In this document: positions 5,770-54,257 of the stretch, one piece after another | How the letters are laid out: every line of letters starts with the position of its first letter | Numbering within the stretch: the first letter of the stretch is position 1 | DNA from: Orbilia blumenaviensis | Taxonomy: Eukaryota; Ascomycota; Orbiliomycetes; Orbiliales; Orbiliaceae | Assembly (NCBI GenBank): GCA_036872755.1 | Contig: JAVHNS010000001.1 | Span: 2,976,001 to 3,040,000 of the forward strand | Reading direction: 5' to 3' | DNA length: 64,000 bases | Made by a program: the position numbers and the translations under genes | The notes under the pieces: model-generated | What the model was told of the DNA's origin: nothing | Database searches by the model: none | Seen by the model: only the letters and a program-made list of their open reading frames with translations

Positions 5770-7524
5770 ATGCCTGTTGTTACCAGTATCGCCAACAGTA
5801 CCCACTACGATTTTATTATTGTTGGGGGTGGTACTGCAGGAAATGTTGTCGCCGGTCGTCTCGCCGACAATCCGAATGCCACTATTCTCATTGTCGAGGC
5901 TGGTGTCGGCAACCCGCAGCAAATCGAGGAAATCATGACTCCATCTAATGCCATGAGCCTTCGTGGCTCTAAACACGACTGGGCTTATAAGACTACCATC
6001 GTTAAGCGTGACGATTACGAGCGTATCGAGAAGCCGAACACTCGTGGTAAAGCCCTTGGCGGTAGCTCTTCCCTTAATTACTTTACTTGGATTCCAGGAT
6101 GCAAAGCTACTTTTGATTATATGGAGGAATATGGTGGCGAGGACTGGACTTGGGACAAGCTCTTGCCTTATCTTCGCAAGTCGGCTACCTATCACGATGA
6201 CGAGGGACTTTACCCCACCGAGCTCGCCAAAATTGGCTCTGGTGGCCCACTCAATATTTCCCACGCCGAATTACTACCTGAGTTAGCACCTTTCCGTGAT
6301 GCTTTGACCAAAGCTTGGTTGTCGCAGGGTGGAACTCTTACGGAAAATATTTATGATGGCGACATGATCGGCCTTACTCATTGCGTCGACTCTATCTACC
6401 AGGGCCGTCGCAATGGTTCCTTCCTTTTTGTACCAGATTCCAAGAAGAACATCACCATCTTACCTGAAGTTCATAGCAAAAAGCTCATTATTGATAAGGC
6501 CAGCTTGACCGCCAAGGGTGTTACTGTTATTGATAAGAACGGCGAGGAACTTAGTTTCTACGCTGACCGCGAAGTTATTCTATCTCAGGGTGTCTTCGAG
6601 TCACCCAAACTTCTCATGCTCAGTGGTATCGGCCAAAAGAGCCAACTTGAGAAGTTTGGCATTGAGGTGCTCCTCGATTCACCACACGTTGGTCAGAATT
6701 TGATTGACCACCCAGCCGTCCCGTTCGTTCTTAAGGTCAAGGACGACCTTTGCATGGATGATGTCCTCCTTCGAAAGAACGAAAAGAACTTCGCCGCCAA
6801 GTCCACTTATGCTAAGGACCACTCCGGCCCTGTCGGATCTGGTCTCCTCGAACTTGTTGGTTTTCCACGTATCGACAGCTACCTCGAAAAGGACGCCGAG
6901 TACAACCGACGCAAGGCCGCCAATGGTGGTCTTGACCCTCTTTCCCCGCACGGTCAACCCCATTTCGAACTTGACTTTGTCGGAATGTTCGGCTCTGCTT
7001 TCCAATGGCACTACCCTATTCCTAAACAGGGCTCCCATATCAGCGTCGTTGTCGATCTAGTCCGTACCATCTCTGCACCTGGCGAGGTCACACTCCAGAG
7101 CGCCGACCCCCTTGTCCAACCGGCCATTAATCTCAACTTCTTCGCCGATGAGCTTGACATTATTGCTATGCGTGAGGGTATTCGTTTCAGCTACGACGTT
7201 CTTACCAAGGGCGAGGCTTTTAAAGATCTTGTAGTTGCAGAATACCCATGGGAGATGCCATTGGACGATGACAAGGCTATGCGCCACGCTGTCTTGGATC
7301 GGTGCCAGACTGCTTTCCACCCTCTTGGTACCAACCGTGTCTCTAAGGATATCACCCAGGGTGTCGTCGACGACAAGTTCAAGGTCCACGGTATTAAGAA
7401 CTTGAGAGTTATTGACGCCTCAGCACTCCCAGTTATGCCTGATTGCCGTATTCAAAACTCTGTTTACATGTGCGGCGAGAAGGGCGCTGACGATATTAAA
7501 GCAGCTCATAAAGATCTTTATTAG
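5770..7524 (+). CDS. GMC-family FAD oxidoreductase (584 aa)
   Basis: Intronless glucose-methanol-choline oxidoreductase, a flavoprotein that oxidises an alcohol or sugar and passes electrons to O2 or another acceptor. The N-terminal ADP-binding loop is IIVGGGTAGNVVAGRL (about aa 16-31). GMC signature 1 lies around GKALGGSSSLNYFTWIPG and signature 2 around GVFESPKLLMLSGIG. The catalytic pair is H517 in FHPLGT and N563 in RIQNSVYMCGEKGAD. There is no signal peptide, so an intracellular enzyme is likely, closer to choline dehydrogenase or alcohol oxidase types than to secreted glucose oxidase. The length is normal for the family. Codon use is rich in C/T-ending codons, suggesting good expression. 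Its neighbours are a catalase (divergent) and an FAD monooxygenase. The substrate cannot be read from the sequence. Confidence 0.92.
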   Translation: MPVVTSIANSTHYDFIIVGGGTAGNVVAGRLADNPNATILIVEAGVGNPQQIEEIMTPSNAMSLRGSKHDWAYKTTIVKRDDYERIEKPNTRGKALGGSSSLNYFTWIPGCKATFDYMEEYGGEDWTWDKLLPYLRKSATYHDDEGLYPTELAKIGSGGPLNISHAELLPELAPFRDALTKAWLSQGGTLTENIYDGDMIGLTHCVDSIYQGRRNGSFLFVPDSKKNITILPEVHSKKLIIDKASLTAKGVTVIDKNGEELSFYADREVILSQGVFESPKLLMLSGIGQKSQLEKFGIEVLLDSPHVGQNLIDHPAVPFVLKVKDDLCMDDVLLRKNEKNFAAKSTYAKDHSGPVGSGLLELVGFPRIDSYLEKDAEYNRRKAANGGLDPLSPHGQPHFELDFVGMFGSAFQWHYPIPKQGSHISVVVDLVRTISAPGEVTLQSADPLVQPAINLNFFADELDIIAMREGIRFSYDVLTKGEAFKDLVVAEYPWEMPLDDDKAMRHAVLDRCQTAFHPLGTNRVSKDITQGVVDDKFKVHGIKNLRVIDASALPVMPDCRIQNSVYMCGEKGADDIKAAHKDLY

Positions 7525-21309: not shown

Positions 21310-22493
21310 CTAGATCGTCGGTTCCTCCCCTTTGCTTAGCGGTTCGAAAATTTTGGTCCACAAATCATGCTCTTCGCCCACGATGTACGTCATTTCCAGG
21401 TCCTTGTATCCGACCCGAGATTCTGGAACCTTTTCCATGAGTCGCAGGACTTGGATTACCTCGTCCAATAGGATTGCCTTTCCGACTGTGGCGGAGGCGC
21501 CCATGTCGTGAGAAATGTGGACGACGTGGACGTGGAAATGGTAGTAAGATGGCTGATAGTGGACGTAGATTTTGAGAAGATCTCCTGGGATAGAATACTT
21601 CTCAGAAACAGCGGTTAGGACTTTGGTTCGTAGAGTGGTAAGGAAGGGGATGTGTGTTGGTGTGAAGTCGCGAATCGAATAGATATCAGTTCGGTGGACA
21701 ATGACCGAAAGATAGAGTGAAGTAAGAGTTACAAGATCCCATTTCCTATATGTATGAAAATTCAAGATTGTGAGACAACTGGGTACTGATATTAATCGGC
21801 TACGGATCAATCGCTTGGATCCTGTCGCGTAGGTACGCGAGGATACGCAACCCCTACCCCAGTCCATGGCGATAAGATACACGTATTGTGGCGGAGGGGC
21901 TTGACACTTACAGATCTGGTAACAAGATAAACCCCAGCTCTTTATCCTCATCTTCGTAGATGATTTTTTCGCTTTCAGCTTTATGGTCCAGAATGTTGTA
22001 GACCCAGTTCAATCTACCTCCTTCAGTTTTCTGCTTGATGTACTTCGTGACATACTTCTCGTAGATTTCGGGAGTCTCCACGACCATGTGAATTTTCTGT
22101 GCTGAATATTTCTTGATGTGTACTTCGGTACAAGGATAGATCAAATTGACCTTAACAGCAGCATTAGAGGTGGCTGACTGAGCAATCGTACCCATGAACC
22201 AGTGGTATATGTCATTCTTCTGAAGAAGGTTCAAAGAGAGAAGGCCTTCTTCAGAAGAGACAAAGTTCTCAGGTGATGCAATACTAAATGCTGTCTTTTC
22301 GGCAGTTATGATTGCTGGTTGCCCATTAATTGTTCCCAGAAGGTTGAGGCTTTTACGGCCGGTATCTATATTTTTTCTGTTTAGTAACCGTCTACCAAGA
22401 ACATTCGTTTAACCCAAAATGCGGGGACAGACCTTGATTCAGGATACGCTCGAACTTGAAGGCGCGAAGGTCTTGCTCTGGAGTGCTCGCCAT
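21310..22493 (-). CDS. dcs1: Scavenger mRNA decapping enzyme (DcpS/Dcs1), HIT family
   Basis: Hydrolyses the m7GpppN cap dinucleotide left after 3'-5' mRNA decay. Exons are 22433-22493, 21912-22365 and 21310-21745, total 951 nt, 316 aa. Start MASTPEQDLRAFKFERILNQ matches the family start. The first intron has a TTACTAAAC branch, and the second (166 nt) joins LLPDL to KWD in frame. Family landmarks include LLGTINGQPAI, YHWFMG, KELGFILLPDLKWD and VHYQPSYYH. The HIT triad HxHxH is HFHVHVV at about aa 241-247, with H243 as the likely nucleophile. It is cytoplasmic or nuclear. It is divergent from ATP25 over a 397-bp shared promoter. Length is slightly below the yeast and human enzymes. Confidence 0.94.
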
Positions 22494-22890: not shown

Positions 22891-25800
22891 ATGCCATTGT
22901 CGGCATCCCGCCAGCTCGTACCACCGAAATGGTGCCCGTCCTGCTCACTGGCTTTGCTCCGAGCCTTTGCTTCGGTATGTGGAACGACACTGCCTGCGCC
23001 TGCACGACGGGTCGGAGGGAGTAGATATCGCCACTTGAGTTCTCTGAGCTCAAAAAATGGACGGCTGAGGATTGGTCGAAATCCAGGGGGGATAAATGGG
23101 ACCTGCTCGGGCCCAGTCGCTACCCAGAGATCTTATGGGTCAAATAATGGCAAGAATGACTATGAAGAAGAAGAATCCGGACCGACAATGGAAGAGATAG
23201 AAGAAATCAACGAAAAATGGGAAAAGAGCGGTTTAAAAAAAGCATTCCGGAATTTTGAAGCAGACCTAAAAGATTTATCACTAAAGAAGATGCAAGAGAT
23301 GGAAGAGGAATCGATAGCGGATATGCTACGGGGAACGCCACATTTACCTCAAAATACTGAGGAACCAAAGCTTAAGCCAAAGACCGAATTGGATCTTGCA
23401 ATTCAGAAAGAACTGGACGAAAGACTTGAAAGAATGCGACAGACTGCTGCCCGTAAACGAGAGGCGGCCATCAAGAAGGACGACCGTGAGCTTGTAGCAA
23501 AACAGGCAGAAGCGGATGCTACGAAGACCGAGGCAATAACGGCCGACAATCATGCTAGCACCTTAATGAACGCCAGCGAGGAGGACATCGAAGGCGCGAG
23601 TGAGATAATAGAAAGAGAAGAAGGAGAGATATATGATACCAAGGAAGGGCTTGAGGGGGTGGAGGAGGTAGAAATTTGGGAAGAACAGGAGGATGGAGAA
23701 ATTGAATACCGGGCAGCAGAAGAAGAGGATCTCGAATACAGAGAAAGGGACGGAGAGTATATAGAACACAAGGCGGAAGGGAAAGAGAGCATTGAACACA
23801 GTATAGAAGAAGAAATCGAAGGTAGGGCGGAAGAGGAAGAAGATATCGAATACCGAGCTTCAGAACCCGCGGCGCCCTCTCCAACATCAGATGGCACACC
23901 ATGGTATCTTCAATCGCCCCTCCAACCTGCACCTCGCCGCTTTGTCTCCCCACTTATTGAACAAATGCCCGAGCTTCCGCCAAACTCTCCAGCGCACTTG
24001 GGCACACTCCTCAACTACCTGATTAAGGACCTCTCGCTGTCCAAAATTAAAATTATGGACATACGGGGTTTGGAGCCAACCCCTGCTCTGGGACCGAATA
24101 CGATCATGATCCTTGCTACTGCAAGATCTGAAAGACATATGACTATTGCATCTGATAAGTGTTGCAGATATATGCGGGGTATTTTGGAGGGTACACAAAT
24201 ATTTGCAGATGGGTTAATTGGCCGTGGGGAAATTAAGCTACGCGAGAGGCGTGAACGCAGAAAAGGAAAGAGAAGAACAGCAGAAGACGAAGAGGCTCTA
24301 AGAGTTGGTTGGATCTGCGTCAATTCTGGCCAGGGTATTGTAGTTCAAATTATGACTGGGTGGAAGAGAGAACAGTTGAACCTCGAGGGACTGTGGTCGA
24401 GAAAGATCCACACTTCCATGAAGAGAAAATTAAAGGATAAGCTCCTGGCTGAAGGTCTCAGCGAAGACGAAGTCAGAACAATAGTGGCAAAGGAACTTCC
24501 AGAACGATTGGATATGGCGCCAGAGTACGATGCACAAGAGGACGCAGCTGAAGCAAGGAAAGTTGAGGCGAAACTCATCGTGTCTGAAATTCTCCCACCA
24601 CTGGAAGATCCACCAAGGGTTGGAATGGAAGAGTATCAAGATGTCCTAAAGGTTGTGGAGTTACATTCAAAGTCTAGGAAAAAGCAGGAAGGCAAACGGT
24701 ATATCGACATACCCGCCGTGAAGCAGAGGAAGCTCACCTGGAGAGAGAAGCAGAAGCAACTGAACTCCGTTTCTTTCTCTACAAAATATGCTTTCTCAAC
24801 TAGCGCACGACAGTACAGTACATTTGTGGAAACCATCCCGGCTGCAAATCTATTGTCACTTCTAAATCCAACTCGCAAGGAAGAGTTGCCGATAGAGGAA
24901 CTGGTAAGACAGGGCAGATATCAAGAGGTCCTTAAGGCATATCCACGTCCTCGGACTGATGCGCAAGCTACATTAGTTCTGCTCGCCCACCTGAACCACC
25001 TCATCCTAACACCACGAAATATCGCTACTACGACTCTCTTATCTCCCAATCCCGAACAGCTCTATTCTACTCCCTTCTTTAAGTCTTTCATGCTATCTTT
25101 TCCAAAGAGGCCAGCCCCAACACACAATCACATCCTCACCCTCCTACACATCTACGCTCATGACATCTCGCCGCTGTTGTACACTATCAGGAAGTACGCT
25201 ATCAGGCCTTCTGAAATTCTTCAGAGCGGCCACCAAGTTCCGCTTATCACCTACCATGCCATCCTTCGGGCACTTGCGACTTCTGCATCTTTGCGGGGAG
25301 ATGAAGCCAAGTCCTTAACTTATTGGACAAACCGTACCACCGACACAATCTCTATCATGACACTTTACATCCTTCGAAAGATGGATGTAACAGGCATCGA
25401 GGTTGGAAACGATCCAGAAATCTTTGAGAGCCTTTGGTTAGCTATGGCCCCGCGGGATACTTTGGAATACATTGCTACTCTGGGTGATGCACGTCTTAGA
25501 GGCGGGGTGTTAGACGACTCTGAACCCTTCAGCAGAGCTCTGGACCATAGGTTGGACTTATATAGAACCTTCCACCGTATATGGTATGATCCTTTCAAGT
25601 TTATACCGGCTGAGTGCAGCTATTTCCGAGGTCCCCCAGTGGAGGAAGATGTTCTTGAAAAACTGCTGCACAAGAAAATACAATATCCACCGGAGAACCC
25701 GAGGGGGGCATACCAATCCTTACCGAGTTATCTAGTAACTATGTTTGTAACTTTGGCAAGAGCAAATGGGTGGGGCCGTCTAAAGGGTCTTTGGAGATGG

Positions 25801-26112
25801 TTACCTGGGAAAGGTGTGAGGCGGCCAAAGGCGCTATACGCGCTATACCTTGAGCTTCTCGCGAGGGAGGCGGAAGTGAGAGCTATTATTGAAGGATTAA
25901 GGTTTTTACTGTCGGATTATGAGAAGGAGTATGCTGGTAGGGAGGATGTGTCTGATGGAATTGCGGAGGCTCTGGTGGCTTGCGTGGGGTTTATTGAGAC
26001 CGAGGTGCCCGGAACTGGACAGGAATTTGGGAACTGGAAGAGGCGGAGCGAGGCTTTCTTGAGTGGGGGGACCGTTACGCGTGAGAAAGGAAATTATACC
26101 TATGTTATTTAG
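22891..26112 (+). CDS. ATP25: ATP25-like mitochondrial protein (ATP synthase assembly / OLI1 mRNA stability)
   Basis: Intronless, 1073 aa. In yeast, Atp25 is cut in mitochondria. The N-terminal half has an RsfS/iojap-type fold and aids Atp9 ring assembly; the C-terminal half (M domain) stabilises ATP9/OLI1 mRNA. Here an Arg/Ser-rich presequence (aa 1 to about 50) precedes a charged helical part. A very acidic repeat-like insert follows (about aa 235-330, EEEDIEYR/EHKAEGKE units). The RsfS-like domain is at about aa 369-500 (HLGTLLNYLIKDLSLSKIKIMDIRG, then VGWICVNSGQGIVVQIMTGWKREQ). At about aa 628-645 there is a second presequence-like stretch (FSTSARQYSTF). The helical M-type region runs to the end. 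It is longer than typical ATP25 because of the insert. The assignment is strong for the RsfS part and weaker for the M domain. Confidence 0.85.
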   Translation: MPLSASRQLVPPKWCPSCSLALLRAFASVCGTTLPAPARRVGGSRYRHLSSLSSKNGRLRIGRNPGGINGTCSGPVATQRSYGSNNGKNDYEEEESGPTMEEIEEINEKWEKSGLKKAFRNFEADLKDLSLKKMQEMEEESIADMLRGTPHLPQNTEEPKLKPKTELDLAIQKELDERLERMRQTAARKREAAIKKDDRELVAKQAEADATKTEAITADNHASTLMNASEEDIEGASEIIEREEGEIYDTKEGLEGVEEVEIWEEQEDGEIEYRAAEEEDLEYRERDGEYIEHKAEGKESIEHSIEEEIEGRAEEEEDIEYRASEPAAPSPTSDGTPWYLQSPLQPAPRRFVSPLIEQMPELPPNSPAHLGTLLNYLIKDLSLSKIKIMDIRGLEPTPALGPNTIMILATARSERHMTIASDKCCRYMRGILEGTQIFADGLIGRGEIKLRERRERRKGKRRTAEDEEALRVGWICVNSGQGIVVQIMTGWKREQLNLEGLWSRKIHTSMKRKLKDKLLAEGLSEDEVRTIVAKELPERLDMAPEYDAQEDAAEARKVEAKLIVSEILPPLEDPPRVGMEEYQDVLKVVELHSKSRKKQEGKRYIDIPAVKQRKLTWREKQKQLNSVSFSTKYAFSTSARQYSTFVETIPAANLLSLLNPTRKEELPIEELVRQGRYQEVLKAYPRPRTDAQATLVLLAHLNHLILTPRNIATTTLLSPNPEQLYSTPFFKSFMLSFPKRPAPTHNHILTLLHIYAHDISPLLYTIRKYAIRPSEILQSGHQVPLITYHAILRALATSASLRGDEAKSLTYWTNRTTDTISIMTLYILRKMDVTGIEVGNDPEIFESLWLAMAPRDTLEYIATLGDARLRGGVLDDSEPFSRALDHRLDLYRTFHRIWYDPFKFIPAECSYFRGPPVEEDVLEKLLHKKIQYPPENPRGAYQSLPSYLVTMFVTLARANGWGRLKGLWRWLPGKGVRRPKALYALYLELLAREAEVRAIIEGLRFLLSDYEKEYAGREDVSDGIAEALVACVGFIETEVPGTGQEFGNWKRRSEAFLSGGTVTREKGNYTYVI

Positions 26113-30099: not shown

Positions 30100-32242
30100 A
30101 TGCCTGGGATGACAGTGGACATCATGGCGAATCCGGAACCGCACGCCGACCAGCAGTCTCCTTCTCCGTACATGTCGACACCTGAACCTACCCACCAAGG
30201 AACCGGGGCAGATAACACCGACCATCAGATCGAGACCATCGTATCGAAGTCGATACACCCTACAGTAGCTTCATTGAAACAAAACCCCGAGCAACAGATC
30301 GATCCTAGTCTAGATGCGATCATGGAAGATGTCTCGGCTATCGGTACCCCGGCACGGAGCCACGACGAACGATCACAATCAATGGACGTCCAAATTCCGG
30401 ACCGACCAGTCGAAGATTCCTTTATTGACCGTCGAGATGAAAGCCCCAGCGAGGCGCAGAGCTCCCCTGGACAGGGATATGCCTATGAAGAGCCACAGAA
30501 CCTCGAACAGCTGGCGACTGCAGCTCACGAAAGCGCCATGGCCTCGACGGCTGTGCCACAGTCGAAGGGACAAGTTTGTTCGTACGTGGATGTTTTGGTT
30601 TTTTCCCCACATTACAACGCTTCCTTTCGCTGCTAATAATACCCCTACATCAACAGGAATTGCGGGACCACAAGAACTCCTTTATGGAGACGGGCGCCGA
30701 ATGGCTTGACAATTTGTAATGCATGTGGCCTTTACCTAAAAGCTCGCAATGCGGCCCGTCCAAGTACGCTTAAACGCCCTCCTAACTCTGTATCCATTGG
30801 TGGGGAAGGACCTATCCCTATACCGGCTGGCCAGGCGCAGGCCAACACACATGCCGGCGCACATTACGTCGCGGACAGCCACCTCGCTCCTGGCACTTGT
30901 CCTGGAGGGGGAAAATGTAATGGGACGGGTGGCCAGGATGGATGCCACGGCTGCCCCGCTTACAACAATAGAGTGTCGAAGGCTGCTAAGTTTGTCGTTG
31001 CTGCGAATGGTTCGAATGCTTTCGCTGTAGATGGTTCACAAGGACAGTCAGCGACTGGCAGCTTTGGCGCCAACAGTGGTGGCAGCCAGAACGGCGAAGG
31101 TCACACGATTCCGAGACCGGCCAATGGGCCCCAGCTAGCAGAACCAAGAGTTGATGCAGCTGGTCAGACGACGACAGCTGTCCCTGCCTGTCAAAACTGC
31201 GGGACCACGATAACACCGCTGTGGAGGAGGGATGAATCTGGGCACACGATATGCAATGCATGCGGTAAGTTTAACAAATTTTCGTTTATATCCTCTAGAC
31301 GGAATTAGACGGAGCTTGATTCACAGTAGTCGAGCGTCGAAAAAAATTTTCATTACTTGTCTTTTCGTCATGAACTCGTTTTCCAGGAATCCGGACCGGA
31401 GGTCTGTCTACGCGAATTATTTGCAGAGGCTAATTGATCACAATGCAGGGCTCTATCATAAGCTGCATGGAGTGCATCGCCCAGAGACTATGAAGAAAAG
31501 TGTGATCAAGAGACGAAAGCGTGTTGTCCCACCAAGCCATTTCCCCCCTCCTCCGATACCGCGACATCCCCTCGCACGGCCGGAATATCCAAGTCCACAA
31601 CGACAAATCCTCCCGAATGAATACCAACATTCTCCCCATTCTTCTCCTCAACCATCTGGCTATCCATCCCACCGCGACGACGACACCAGAATGTCTGATA
31701 CAGAAGATCCATCACGCCCCAATTATCGGGCTGCTATGATCGGTCCCGATCCGAGTTTGGTGAATTCAGGCCGATATGCCCCTCAGGACTTCACGAACTA
31801 TCGGAGCATGGGCACCACATTAGCCCCTATGACAAACAGTCAGGCCCCAGACGACTTAAGGCTTTCTCCGTTGCAATCTGGCACATCACCAAGTGTGGGT
31901 AGGAAGAGATCTCTGAGCAGCGGTTCTCAAGTGTCTGGAGAACCTACAGATACTTCTGGGGGGACGCGCTTACAGAGTATCAGCTCAATCCTAAACCAGC
32001 CTTCCACCATGGAGCCACAGGCCCTCCAAATGTCGGCAGACCCAGCCGTCAAACGGCAACAGCTTCTGACCCGCAAGCGGCTCGCAGAGTCTGAAATGGA
32101 GCGAATCAATCAAGAAAGCGAGAGAATTGAGAGAGAGCGTAGGGAGATAGAGCGATTGCTCGAGAGCTGTGAGGTTGAGCTCAAAGAACTGGAAATCTCA
32201 GTTGAACCCCCAGCACCAATTGAACCGAATCCAGGGAATTAG
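30100..32242 (+). CDS. sreA: GATA-type siderophore/iron repressor (SreA/Urbs1/SRE family)
   Basis: Represses siderophore synthesis and iron uptake genes when iron is sufficient, acting in the nucleus. Exons are 30100-30581, 30657-31264 and 31449-32242, total 1884 nt, 627 aa. Both introns fall inside or next to the zinc fingers and are fixed by them. Finger 1 is C160-x2-C163-x17-C181-x2-C184 with [17 protein letters not shown]. Between the fingers is the diagnostic Cys-rich iron-sensing region C242-x5-C248-x8-C257-x2-C260 ([19 protein letters not shown]). Finger 2 is C339-x2-C342-x17-C360-x2-C363, continuing as [18 protein letters not shown] basic KRRKRVVP signal follows, then a long Pro/Ser-rich part and a C-terminal coiled coil ([20 protein letters not shown]), as in the family. 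Alternative ATGs occur at 30109 and 30124. Confidence 0.95.
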
Positions 32243-37404: not shown

Positions 37405-38322
37405 TTATCTTCGAGCGATCATTTGGCGTAACTTTTTCGGTCTCCTGCTAGAGGAAGGATCATCAAAGCCGTAGATAGTCCTCCCTTTCTATAAACCTCT
37501 TCGTTAGCGCATTTTGCCATCCACGTTACAGTAATTTTAGAACATACAATATTTAATGCGTGAACAACCTAACAAGCGGGGTATTAGCATCTTCTATGGA
37601 GTCATGACGTTGTGATAGCACTACTTACGTCGCTGGTTGTGACAGTCTTCCTCCTGGCGTGCTCGGTGTACATAACACAGCTTTGGATAACAGGTTTTAA
37701 GTAATCCTTAATCACTTTTCTTGCTTCCTCGTAAATCGATGCACTTATCCTCTTCACGCCTCCCCGGCGAGCAAGGCGACTGTATCCGAAGCAGGATACA
37801 GATGTTAGCCACGTAATAAATCACCATCCTAAGGGCCGGATTGCTTACCGGATGGCTGGCCTGGCTGTATTTGAGGAAGAAAGTTGCTATTAGTTTCTAG
37901 CAACAAACCTGAGATATCACCAGAAGGTACTTACTAATTCCTTGGATGTTATCCCTGAGAATCTTCCGGTGACGTTTATTCATTGAAAGAACACCCAAAC
38001 CCTTGCCTCCCTTCCCTCTCCCTGGCACCGGGTGACCGGCAGGAGTCTTTCTCGCTATAGAGCTGAGTGTAACCCTACTGCCACTTGCACCTATGCGACT
38101 GCTTTCGGCAGCGGTCTCCGGCACTCTAAAAACCCGATGGACGTTCAGGCTGGCTGAGGCTGCCTGTGCAGGCCGAGTGGGAGTGCTCGTGGCGGAGCCA
38201 CGCACAAATGCTATTGTAGACGAACCAATTGGCCTCGGTGGAGGCATCCCACCTGTTCTCGTCAAACCAGTCGGACCACGCGCGGGCGCATTACGCCCAG
38301 CTAGGTTCCTCCCTGGCGGCAT
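37405..38322 (-). CDS. Divergent histone H4 variant with long N-terminal extension
   Basis: Exons are 37935-38322, 37849-37864 (16 nt), 37629-37779, 37548-37568 (21 nt) and 37405-37488; 660 nt, 219 aa, in frame. Introns of 59-70 bp each have a branch-like CTAAT/CTAAC. Residues 1-99 are a Pro/Arg/Ala/Gly/Ser-rich extension. From aa 100 the sequence follows H4: [55 protein letters not shown] and GRTIYGF. Positions equal to H4 K5, K8, K16, R17, H18, R19 and K20 are kept. K12 is lost (GLGVLSMN in place of GLGKGGA, with one extra residue), and K31 and K77 are Arg. Helix 2 differs ([20 protein letters not shown]), including a Cys. A 19-residue basic tail ([19 protein letters not shown]) replaces the final GG. 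It should pair with H3 in nucleosomes; any special site or stage is unknown. A divergent H4 (H4v) is reported in Neurospora. Confidence 0.9.
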
Positions 38323-46030: not shown

Positions 46031-47101
46031 ATGAGGTCTTCGATCTTCTTCCTCTCTACCCTCCTCTCAGGAGCATCCACCGTCCTGGGACACGCATACA
46101 TCAAAGAAATGGTAATTGGTGGCCAAACTTACGCCGGCTTCGACCCATTCTACCAAGCCTCACCCCAAGGCATCGTCCAACCCTGGGATACCCGTAACCG
46201 TAACACCGACGGTCCCATGCGACTATCTGACGGTGACGGCATCATCTGCGGCCGTAACCCTACCCCAGCCCAGAATATTGCAAAAGCACAGGCAGGAAGT
46301 CAACTCACATTCCGTTGGTCGAGGTGGCAGCAGAATCATCAGGGTCCGATTATTACATACCTTGCGGACTGTGGTGGAGACTGCAAACAAGCGCGAGGCG
46401 CTAATTTGCAGTGGTTCAAAATCGATGAAGTCGGGCTACTGCAGCAGGGTTTCTGGGGAACAGACCAGTTGATCCGCCAGGGTTATGAGTGGAAAATTCA
46501 ACTTCCCCAGAATATAAAATCCGGGCAATACCTAATGCGCCATGAAATGATTGCACTGCAATTCGCAACCCAACAGAATGGTGCACAATTCTTCACTTCC
46601 TGCACTAATCTTGAGATCGAAGGTGGTACAGGTCAGACTGTGCCTCAGGGTGTAAGACTACAAGATTATTATAACGGGGGTACCCAGGGTCTGTTTGTGA
46701 ACATCCAGGGCTTGGGATCTTACCAGATCCCCGGACCACCGCTTACCCAGGGCTTGGGGATTACGCCGAGTGTGCAGTTGAACGATGGGAGCAATAATAA
46801 CCCCAGCTTTCCAAGGACATTCCCTAATGAGCCGACTGATGATAATGGTACCACACCCAATGTGCATTTGGACTATGCCGGCGGTGTCTCCGGCGGTAGC
46901 CAGCAGGCTCAGCAACAGCAACAGCAAGGACAACAGGGACGATATGTTTACTACCCTGGGTATGGATATTACTACGTATACAACAAGAGAGATATCCACA
47001 GAGAGGGACATCGTGATGGGCACAGGAATATGAAGAGGAGGAATCATCTGAGGAGAAGGATAGTGGCTGCTGCTGCTGCTGTGAAGGCAGAGAGTGCGTA
47101 A
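46031..47101 (+). CDS. AA9-type lytic polysaccharide monooxygenase, atypical active site (356 aa)
   Basis: AA9 enzymes use copper and O2/H2O2 to cut cellulose and related glucans. This one is intronless. The signal peptide (aa 1-20, ending VLG) exposes H21, the N-terminal copper ligand. The second brace ligand is H103 in NHQGPIITYLADC. IKSGQYLMRHEMIALQ and NGAQFFTSC match the conserved AA9 core, as does KIDEVGLL. However, Q177 stands where the outer-sphere His of ALH is usual, and F188 replaces the axial Tyr of QxY; Q186 is kept. After the catalytic domain (to about aa 225) there is a Pro/Gln-rich linker. The tail is Gln/Gly/Tyr-rich and then His/Arg-rich (REGHRDGHRNMKRRNHLRRR) and has no CBM1. 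Activity may be altered or the protein may have another copper role. Confidence 0.88.
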   Translation: MRSSIFFLSTLLSGASTVLGHAYIKEMVIGGQTYAGFDPFYQASPQGIVQPWDTRNRNTDGPMRLSDGDGIICGRNPTPAQNIAKAQAGSQLTFRWSRWQQNHQGPIITYLADCGGDCKQARGANLQWFKIDEVGLLQQGFWGTDQLIRQGYEWKIQLPQNIKSGQYLMRHEMIALQFATQQNGAQFFTSCTNLEIEGGTGQTVPQGVRLQDYYNGGTQGLFVNIQGLGSYQIPGPPLTQGLGITPSVQLNDGSNNNPSFPRTFPNEPTDDNGTTPNVHLDYAGGVSGGSQQAQQQQQQGQQGRYVYYPGYGYYYVYNKRDIHREGHRDGHRNMKRRNHLRRRIVAAAAAVKAESA

Positions 47102-51750: not shown

Positions 51751-54257
51751 TTATGGGACTGGAAGCTGCGGCTTGGCGATTTGCCACACACAATGAGCGC
51801 CATCAGTTGAGATAGCGTCCAATTGCACTTGCGAGCCAGTCGAGACCGTAACTGGTTCGACCTCTGGGGTAAAGATATTGACTTTGAAAATCTGACCAGA
51901 CTTATTATGAAGGGCATACAAGTCACCATTGACATCAGCGTAAACCGAGCCAAAGGAACCATCCACAGATGTTTTGGTATCGTAGACCTTCAGTGTCACA
52001 AAGGTAGATGTAGTATAATCAAATCTGACCAAGCGGAGAGCGCTACCCTGAGGATTATTGACCTCGTCGGGCACCAGGCTGTATAAAGAATCACCGCCAC
52101 CAGGAATCGAAGCCCAGTCGTATGGGTAAAAATTGTCCACCGTCACTCGGCCGCTTCGGACAACTGTACCGAAAGTGCCAGTGCTGTTGAAGGGATTGAC
52201 ATCGACTTGTATCCAGTCCTGATATGTGGCACCTGCCTCAACAAACTCCTTACTCAAAACCCACATTTGGCCATTTGCATCAACATCAATCGCCGTGGCT
52301 TCCTTTGTGAAGTTAACAGAGGCGCCGAGGTCTACTCCTCTACCATCTCGAGCGATACGGACGATTCTACTAGTATCCCTAGTCATACCATAGATGTAAT
52401 TGTCCAACGAATTGTAGCCGACACCACCAAGCTGTGCGCCGTTACCCAAAACATCACCCCTGACAAGGGTTCTTTCTCCACTCGCGATATTGACGCTGTG
52501 GAGATTTTGGTTAATCGCTAAGTAGCCAAAGTTGTCGCATTCGAAGGGCTCGCCAAAAACTTCAGTTTGAATAGGAGGCACGATGTATTGAATAACAGTG
52601 GCTGTGCCATCTACACGAGTGCTTCCGGCACCGTCTGTTGGCTGAATTGTAGTCCTAACGCTGGAAGTCCAACCAAGGGTGTATGTCACAGTTGGGATAG
52701 TAGTGTATCTGATTTCAGTGACGGTGCCTCTGCTATCAGTAATCGTGGCCCCTGTGTCATCAGTAGGGAATGCTGTAGTGGTAAAAACGCCGGTTCCGAC
52801 TAGTGTGATTGTAGTGGAGGCTGGGACGCTGGGAGGGGTTGTGATTGTGCTACTGGTTGTGGTTGTGGCTGTGGTGGTGGTAGTGGTGGTGGTTGGAACA
52901 GTGGTAGAGCTGCTAGTGGTTGAGCTGCTAGTGGTTGAGCTGCTAGTGGTTGAGCTGCTAGTGGTAGTCGAGCTGCTAGATGTTGTCTCACTAGTAGTAG
53001 TAGAGCTACTGGATGTAGTCTCACTGGTAGTAGTGGTAGTGCTGCTCGAGGTAGTCTCGCTGGTAGTAGTAGTGCTGCTCGAGGTAGTCTCGCTAGTAGT
53101 GCTAGAGCTGCTCGAAGTAGTCTCGCTAGTAGTGCTAGAGCTGCTGGTAGTTGGCTCACTAGTAGTAGTCGAGCTGCTTGAAGTAGTGGGGCTGGTGGTT
53201 GCGGAGCTGCTAGGAGTTGTGGTGCGAGTGGTGGTTGAGGGTGTGGTAGTAGCTCTGGTGGTCGTAGTTGAGGATGGAACGTATTTGGTGACAGTTGCAG
53301 TCACAGTGACATACCTCGTCGAGCGGATGGTAGAAGTTGCTGTGTTATAGACAACCTGGGTAGCAGTCGAATAAACAGTTCCCGTGATGTGGATGGTAGT
53401 AGTCCTCCACCTGGTGGTTGCTGCATTTGCAATTGTTTTCACGACAGTCCTAGTCTGAGTCTTATACTGATTCACATAGCTTGTGGGTACAGCAACAGTC
53501 TTTGTTTTCAGTGGCAGTACTTTAGTGGAGACCTTAGTCTTGGTCACGAAGCAGCCTATTAAGGTTCGAAAACCGTTAGCGTCATGATATCGAAATACAG
53601 CTTCTCTACCCAGTAGGAGGGAATGGAGGGTGATTTTAACACTTACTGCAGGTCTTCGGGATGTTGTAGCGCTTGAGCAAACGACCAGAACTTCCAGATG
53701 TGGTAGGAGCATTGCCAATAACGGTGACAGTGGCAGTGGCGGTTCTTGTTTTAGTAGTCCACCTGAAGACGTATATAGGCGTTAGCGAGTGTACCTTGTT
53801 AATATGGTATGCTCTTAGGCTGTTCTTTATAGCCGTCGGTATTTCATAGTTTTTTAAGTTTGATAGTTAAAACTTACACAGTGGTCTTCGTACTCTTGGT
53901 GCTCAAAAGTGTCCTCGTGAAGCGCTGGGTCTTCCGGTTCGATTTGGTGACAGTCTTAGTAAGAGTGGCAACCTTGCAGGCAGTTTTAACAGTCCTGGTT
54001 GAAGTCTTGGTCTGCCAACGGGTCCAGGTGGCCTTCCCCTTCTTGACGTATGTCGTAGTAGTCGGCGCTGGCTTTGTGACAGTGCTCGTGCATGTTGTAT
54101 AAGGAATCTTGTTCGAAGAGAAATATCTTGAACAGCTGGATGATGAGGCCGCAGAATTGTAAAGTTTCAAGCAGCTGGCAGCGGGTTTAGAACAACTCCC
54201 CGCCACGACTGCACCGGCAAGAAGAGCCAGCTGCAAAACTCCCTGTAAGAGAAGCAT
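51751..54257 (-). CDS. Secreted mucin-like protein with C-terminal DUF6923 domain (766 aa)
   Basis: Exons are 53878-54257, 53647-53762 and 51751-53555 (2301 nt). The signal peptide is MLLLQGVLQLALLAGAVVAG. A short Cys-rich head follows (CSKPAASCLKLYN, SSSSCSRYF), then a Thr/Lys/Arg-rich region with repeated TxTK/TRTV units through exons 1-3. Next is a long Ser/Thr tandem-repeat stalk (ETTSSSS units, about aa 325-425), then a globular C-terminal domain. It starts at CDNFGYLAINQNLHSVNI, with LGGVGYNSLDNYIYGM, IDVDANGQMWVL and VYADVNGDLYALHN repeats of a beta-propeller type (DUF6923). It is probably a heavily O-glycosylated cell-surface or adhesive protein. I see no GPI signal. Confidence 0.85.
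52895..53170. repeat. Ser/Thr-coding minisatellite in DUF6923 gene
   Basis: First four 15-bp units (GAGCTGCTAGTGGTT type, about 52908-52965), then longer imperfect units of roughly 35-45 bp coding SSSTTTSETTS. Copy number is likely to vary between strains. Confidence 0.75.

Follow-up and report, generated by a model that had tools for sequence, protein, structure and literature searches.

A probable Orbilia orthologue of the ascomycete histone H4 variant H4E, with a long N-terminal extension and replaced H2B-facing residues

What kind of histone is encoded by a five-exon gene of Orbilia blumenaviensis (Orbiliomycetes, Pezizomycotina) in which an H4-like fold follows a long N-terminal extension, and how might it be used? 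The gene lay within a 64-kb window (the whole stretch of DNA analysed, 64,000 nucleotides), where a first-pass annotation had placed it at 37405-38322; these coordinates were exact, and the strand, which that annotation lacked, was minus (Table 1). Its five-exon model was borne out by an open frame, clean splice sites and the NCBI annotation of the same gene, TWF730_000855, a 'hypothetical protein' identical to the predicted 219 aa, although this record comes from the same genome and backs the gene model solely as an independent annotation. UniRef names the 219-aa protein 'Histone H4'. The introns were 59-70 nt long, with 5' ends GTAAGT, GTAAGC, GTAAGT and GTATGT and 3' ends CAG or TAG, and each of the four contained a CTAAT or CTAAC branch-point-like motif. 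Exon 1 held the start codon, the 100-residue extension, an internal canonical tail and the beginning of the histone fold. About 98-99 residues preceded the place of canonical Met1, in agreement with the extension of 99 residues first proposed; the basic C-terminal tail was likewise present as described, as were the equivalents of K5, K8, K16 and K20 and the loss of K12 in this protein.

Table 1. Features of the H4-like gene, its window and related loci (window positions unless a contig, C1, C4 or C18, is given)
Feature	Position	Strand	Description
H4-like gene	38322-37405	minus	five exons, 660 nt, product 219 aa
Exon 1	38322-37935	minus	388 nt; residues 1-129 and first base of T130
N-terminal extension, residues 1-100	38322-38023	minus	related extension in 7/7 orthologues
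Internal 10-residue canonical H4 tail sequence, residues 101-110	37993-38022	minus	identical in 7/7 orthologues
Intron 1	37865-37934	minus	phase 1, codon of canonical T30; i2 of H4E gene model
Exon 2	37864-37849	minus	16 nt; diagnostic H4E exon
Intron 2	37780-37848	minus	phase 2, codon of canonical R35; i3 of H4E model
Exon 3	37779-37629	minus	151 nt; carries D68S, A69C, T71M
Intron 3	37569-37628	minus	phase 0, after canonical D85
Exon 4	37568-37548	minus	21 nt; carries Y88H, R92I
Intron 4	37489-37547	minus	phase 0, after canonical residue 92
Exon 5	37488-37405	minus	84 nt with stop; fold end and basic C-tail (19 residues past YGF)
svf1	C1:3051535-3052077		only Svf1_C match in genome; 37 kb from H4E gene
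Dynein heavy chain	C1:3127638-3129368		only DHC_N1 match in genome; 113 kb from H4E gene
Canonical H4 gene	C4:2179928		introns in codons 3 and 73
Canonical H4 gene	C18:899121		introns in codon 49 and after codon 98; read up to GFG near end
GMC oxidoreductase frame	5770-7524	plus	Pfam match
DcpS C-terminal domain frame	21310-21951	minus	Pfam match
RsfS frame	22891-26112	plus	Pfam match
GATA zinc finger frame	30706-31308	plus	Pfam match
AA9 polysaccharide monooxygenase frame	46031-47101	plus	Pfam match
DUF6923 frame	51751-53718	minus	Pfam match

A part of exon 3 recurred far from the gene. A tandem array of a 54-bp unit (9.7 copies) occupied C1:18763-19329, starting 18.8 kb into the contig. Every unit contained a 31-bp piece almost identical to that at window 37657-37687; at the array edge a 60-bp match (57/60) covered 37628-37687, the end of exon 3, stopping at the splice donor. 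The array is an open frame that translates into YTEHA-like repeats. The piece matched only two places in the genome, exon 3 and this array, and the direction was likely from histone gene to minisatellite. An Rfam search found no match within the 64-kb window.

The H4-like fold claimed for the protein was upheld by BLASTP against a canonical H4, with 62 of 84 fold residues identical (4e-43). A profile of five orthologues matched histone H4 chains in the PDB (E 1.7e-51), and the best 60 of 100 matches were all named histone H4. The Pfam Histone model scored 20.0 bits, under its cut-off of 26.4, and the TAF model, at 23.9 bits against a cut-off of 21, was the sole one above its own cut-off; we take these scores to show the extent of the protein's divergence. 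A CENP-T or TAF histone-fold protein was rejected as an identity, since the CENP-T_C model reached 25.2 bits, below its cut-off of 28.1, and the PDB matches listed were H4 chains; a separate CENP-T-like locus was found elsewhere in the genome, on contig C10. Nor is the product a canonical H4, which is nearly invariant at 102-103 aa, as it has 219 aa and 15 positions changed in all seven orthologues. AlphaFold, run from five sequences, gave a poor model (mean pLDDT 51.7) in which the extension was without structure and helices were predicted, at low confidence, at residues 116-140, 148-168, 174-178 and 183-192. The earlier proviso that a canonical H4 might occupy this locus came to nothing, both canonical H4 genes being located elsewhere. 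Next to the one on C18, on the opposite strand, was an H3-like exon pair, a putative H3 (C18:897155-899486), from which we infer the usual divergent H3-H4 pair.

The gene is almost certainly the Orbilia orthologue of H4E/H4v, an H4 variant of ascomycetes, and its product is a member whose N-terminal extension is long. The assignment is drawn from sequence: four intron positions and phases match and the gene is linked to svf1 and dynein. H4E was described across Pezizomycotina by Flipphi et al. 2024, corresponds to N. crassa H4v and A. nidulans HheA, and is illustrated in figure 2 of that paper with A. oligospora (Orbiliomycetes) among the species included (PMC10878826). The gene model given there outside Eurotiomycetes has a 16-nt exon with phase-1 and phase-2 introns, parts of 88 and 63 nt, and a 21-nt exon with phase-0 introns (PMC10878826); the window gene had the same layout, with 16 nt (phase 1/2), 151 nt (88 + 63) and 21 nt (phase 0/0). 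Four of the seven model introns were present at exact positions and phases, and the three absent were i1, the one dividing 88 nt from 63 nt in the model, and the phase-1 intron at the 3' end. No intron position was shared with the two canonical H4 genes of the genome. In Eurotiomycetes and Dothideomycetes hheA is reported between nudA (dynein heavy chain) and svf1 (PMC10878826), whereas on C1 the order was H4E, svf1, dynein, all within 115 kb, with H4E outside the pair. The joint chance of linkage to both genes was about 1e-5 on a uniform-placement estimate, and this loose linkage supports orthology despite an order unlike the published one. Intron positions and linkage thus place the gene in the Neurospora H4v family at which the first reading had hinted, published as H4E in 2024; a new histone family was rejected, as H4E is already published and the introns match. 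Flipphi et al. report that no stable H4E tree was obtained (PMC10878826).

Seven orthologues were compared, from O. blumenaviensis, O. javanica, A. megalospora and A. conoides, two O. oligospora clusters and one further protein, the six named ones all being Orbiliomycetes. In the predicted proteins the extension is conserved in all seven retrieved, with 98-109 residues ahead of the canonical tail and 13-14 K/R against 2-5 D/E; that of O. blumenaviensis is basic (13 K/R, 2 D/E) and rich in Pro, Gly, Ser and Thr. Mean pairwise identity was 0.62 over residues 1-60, 0.43 over 61-100, 1.00 in the canonical tail, 0.84 in the fold (residues 117-200) and 0.54 in the C-tail, which carried 6-8 K/R against 2 D/E in every protein. 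The earlier doubt about missing homologues or relaxed selection is answered by the existence of these proteins and the identity of their folds. Invariant in the extension were G9, RGP 15-17, GGMP 24-27 and RG 41-42, and six of the seven began MPPGR, the seventh (P0005) being without the first six residues. Among the tail lysines K5, K8 and K20 were invariant, K16 was Lys in 4/7 and K12 was lost in 7/7. A TPxR motif (CDK-like or SPKK-like) was rejected, occurring in only five of the seven and in neither O. oligospora protein. Searching with the extension alone gave five matches among 129 candidates, all within the seven, which is weak evidence for absence elsewhere since the search missed the two extension-bearing O. 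oligospora proteins; a search for H4E-specific C-end words gave four matches among five candidates, all Orbilia, and reached no H4E from other classes. No report of an Orbiliomycete H4 extension appeared in the literature listings, although it may already be visible in the figures or supplements of the H4E paper, which include A. oligospora H4E (PMC10878826).

Of 86 fold and end positions, 15 departed in all seven orthologues from the canonical H4 of the O. blumenaviensis genome (49, 54, 58, 64, 67, 68, 69, 71, 83, 84, 88, 92, 93, 101 and 102). Four replacements were found in every one: D68 by S or N, A69 by C (the helix-2 Cys picked out in the first-pass annotation), Y88 by H, and R92 by I, A or T. 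In segments 64-76 and 83-93, 10 of the 24 positions were changed in all seven, compared with 5 of the 62 outside them (Fisher p 0.00065, with segments set after the changes were seen and positions that are not independent). As a control we used the other 115 proteins of the homologue list, with 232 H4 copies outside the orthologue set, in which D68, Y88, R92, R67 and T71 were kept in 232/232 and A69 in 220 (Ser in the other 12), a sample biased toward canonical sequence because it holds mainly plant and animal gene models picked by H4 likeness and few fungi. The genome's single H2B match retained the residues that, on the H2B numbering we assume, face H4. D68 and R92 are critical for hydrogen bonds to H2B (PMC11494296); contacts described for H4 include Y72, E74, H75 and R92 to H2B in the nucleosome, and D68, D85, Y88 and R92 between H4 molecules in the H3-H4 octasome (PMC9659345). 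Y72, E74 and H75, likewise H2B-facing, were kept in 7/7, so H2A-H2B docking may be only mildly weakened, or re-tuned. The canonical H4 DNA contacts named as R36, I46, K79 and T80 (PMC10878826) were unchanged in all seven. The interface change, in a comparison that covers these seven orthologues, may be confined to Orbiliomycetes.

Given a canonical H2B in the genome and replaced H2B-facing residues in H4E, we propose that H3-H4E particles hold H2A-H2B dimers only weakly. H4E would pair with canonical H3 and bind DNA as H4 does, forming open or short-lived particles that might be tetrasome-, hexasome- or loose nucleosome-like, and its basic, disordered extension and C-tail would contribute contacts to DNA or chromatin proteins; the variant is probably low in amount, made outside S phase and present at few sites. 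This scheme of DNA-binding particles with a weak hold on H2A-H2B and extra DNA-binding tails is tentative, and we would sooner expect it to fail than to hold; over the explanation as a whole, H4E identity together with that mechanism, our belief and our doubt are about equal. The A. nidulans protein is reported to be nuclear, to meet H3 in a BiFC assay and to be unable to replace H4.1, and was modelled by Flipphi et al. within a normal nucleosome (PMC10878826). A special-chromatin or stage-specific role, as the first reading supposed, stays hypothetical. A bolder version of the mechanism seems to us decidedly improbable: Orbiliomycete H4E would have given up normal docking of H2A-H2B and, with H3, would build a separate kind of DNA particle poor in H2A-H2B, which the extension shields or anchors and which serves some special state, for instance the starvation-triggered switch to nematode trapping. 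Any tie to that switch is speculative. Expression of the A. nidulans gene is reported to rise at 37 C under nitrogen starvation (PMC10878826). A nitrogen-control (GATA) reading of the Orbilia gene was rejected, as the 1 kb upstream contained three HGATAR sites against a window mean of 3.3, without enrichment.

Alternatively, the tails might be the point, H4E forming ordinary nucleosomes in which its basic extension and C-tail serve to compact chromatin or to mark it, a reading for which the extended tails of sperm-type histones offer a comparison. The excess of basic residues in both tails across the seven orthologues fits, as do the identity of the first 60 extension residues and their invariant motifs; residues 61-100 are far less alike, TPxR is missing from both O. 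oligospora proteins, and the changed H2B-facing residues are left unexplained. On balance we think this rather unlikely. A conserved yet largely dispensable duplicate, expressed at a low level and with no important role, would agree with the reports that deletion and overexpression of hheA in A. nidulans had no detectable phenotype and that H4E was lost in Penicillium, Ophiostomatales and Botryosphaeriales (PMC10878826). Against it, the high average identity of the fold, with changed residues common to the orthologues (C69, H88, D101 and D102), argues against neutral drift, and we give this alternative only a small chance.

Most improbable of all is a gene-model artefact or pseudogene, with the extension untranslated or the gene decayed, for which the start of P0005 at alignment residue 7 might be cited. 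All five exons are open, with canonical splice sites and branch motifs; the shared MPPGR start and the invariant residues ahead of M26 also count against an artefact, and P0005 runs uninterrupted across four junctions although it comes from contigs of at most 1,829 bases, from which spliced RNA is inferred. We therefore rejected a pseudogene on the open frame, splice sites, conserved orthologues and fold identity; as judged from sequence, the gene is real and intact.

Under the preferred reading, an H4E with weakened H2A-H2B docking, these proteins matter: variants of H4 are uncommon, and those of Orbiliomycetes focus the question of what H4E does on one interface. The family itself is known but enigmatic, and the clade-wide extension and interface change are apparently the new part. 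The common losses at D68, Y88 and R92 define a single interface to examine in vitro, and the long conserved extension could be used to raise antibodies and to find partners. Should the interface reading be right, it would explain why H4E fails to replace canonical H4; should the sub-nucleosome reading hold, eukaryotes would have an H4 variant dedicated to making sub-nucleosomes.

Among known systems, the canonical H4 of the same genome shares most fold residues with H4E, as counted above, but is without extension or C-tail and keeps K12, D68, A69, Y88 and R92. A. nidulans H4E/HheA has, like the Orbilia protein, an H4 fold with lengthened tails; its gene, too, contains 16-nt and 21-nt exons of matching phase, is linked to svf1 and the dynein heavy chain, and is separate from two canonical H4 genes. 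The A. nidulans variant differs in having 5 extra N-terminal residues rather than about 100, few tail lysines where the Orbilia protein has the 10-residue canonical tail whole, and a place between svf1 and dynein where Orbilia has the order H4E-svf1-dynein; the Orbilia gene is without the TIPSS insertion and three model introns. N. crassa H4v is named as the H4E orthologue of that species in PMC10878826. The H4 of Cotesia plutellae bracovirus, as described in the same paper, also has an N-terminal extension, of 38 residues, but is lysine-rich and of insect origin (PMC10878826).
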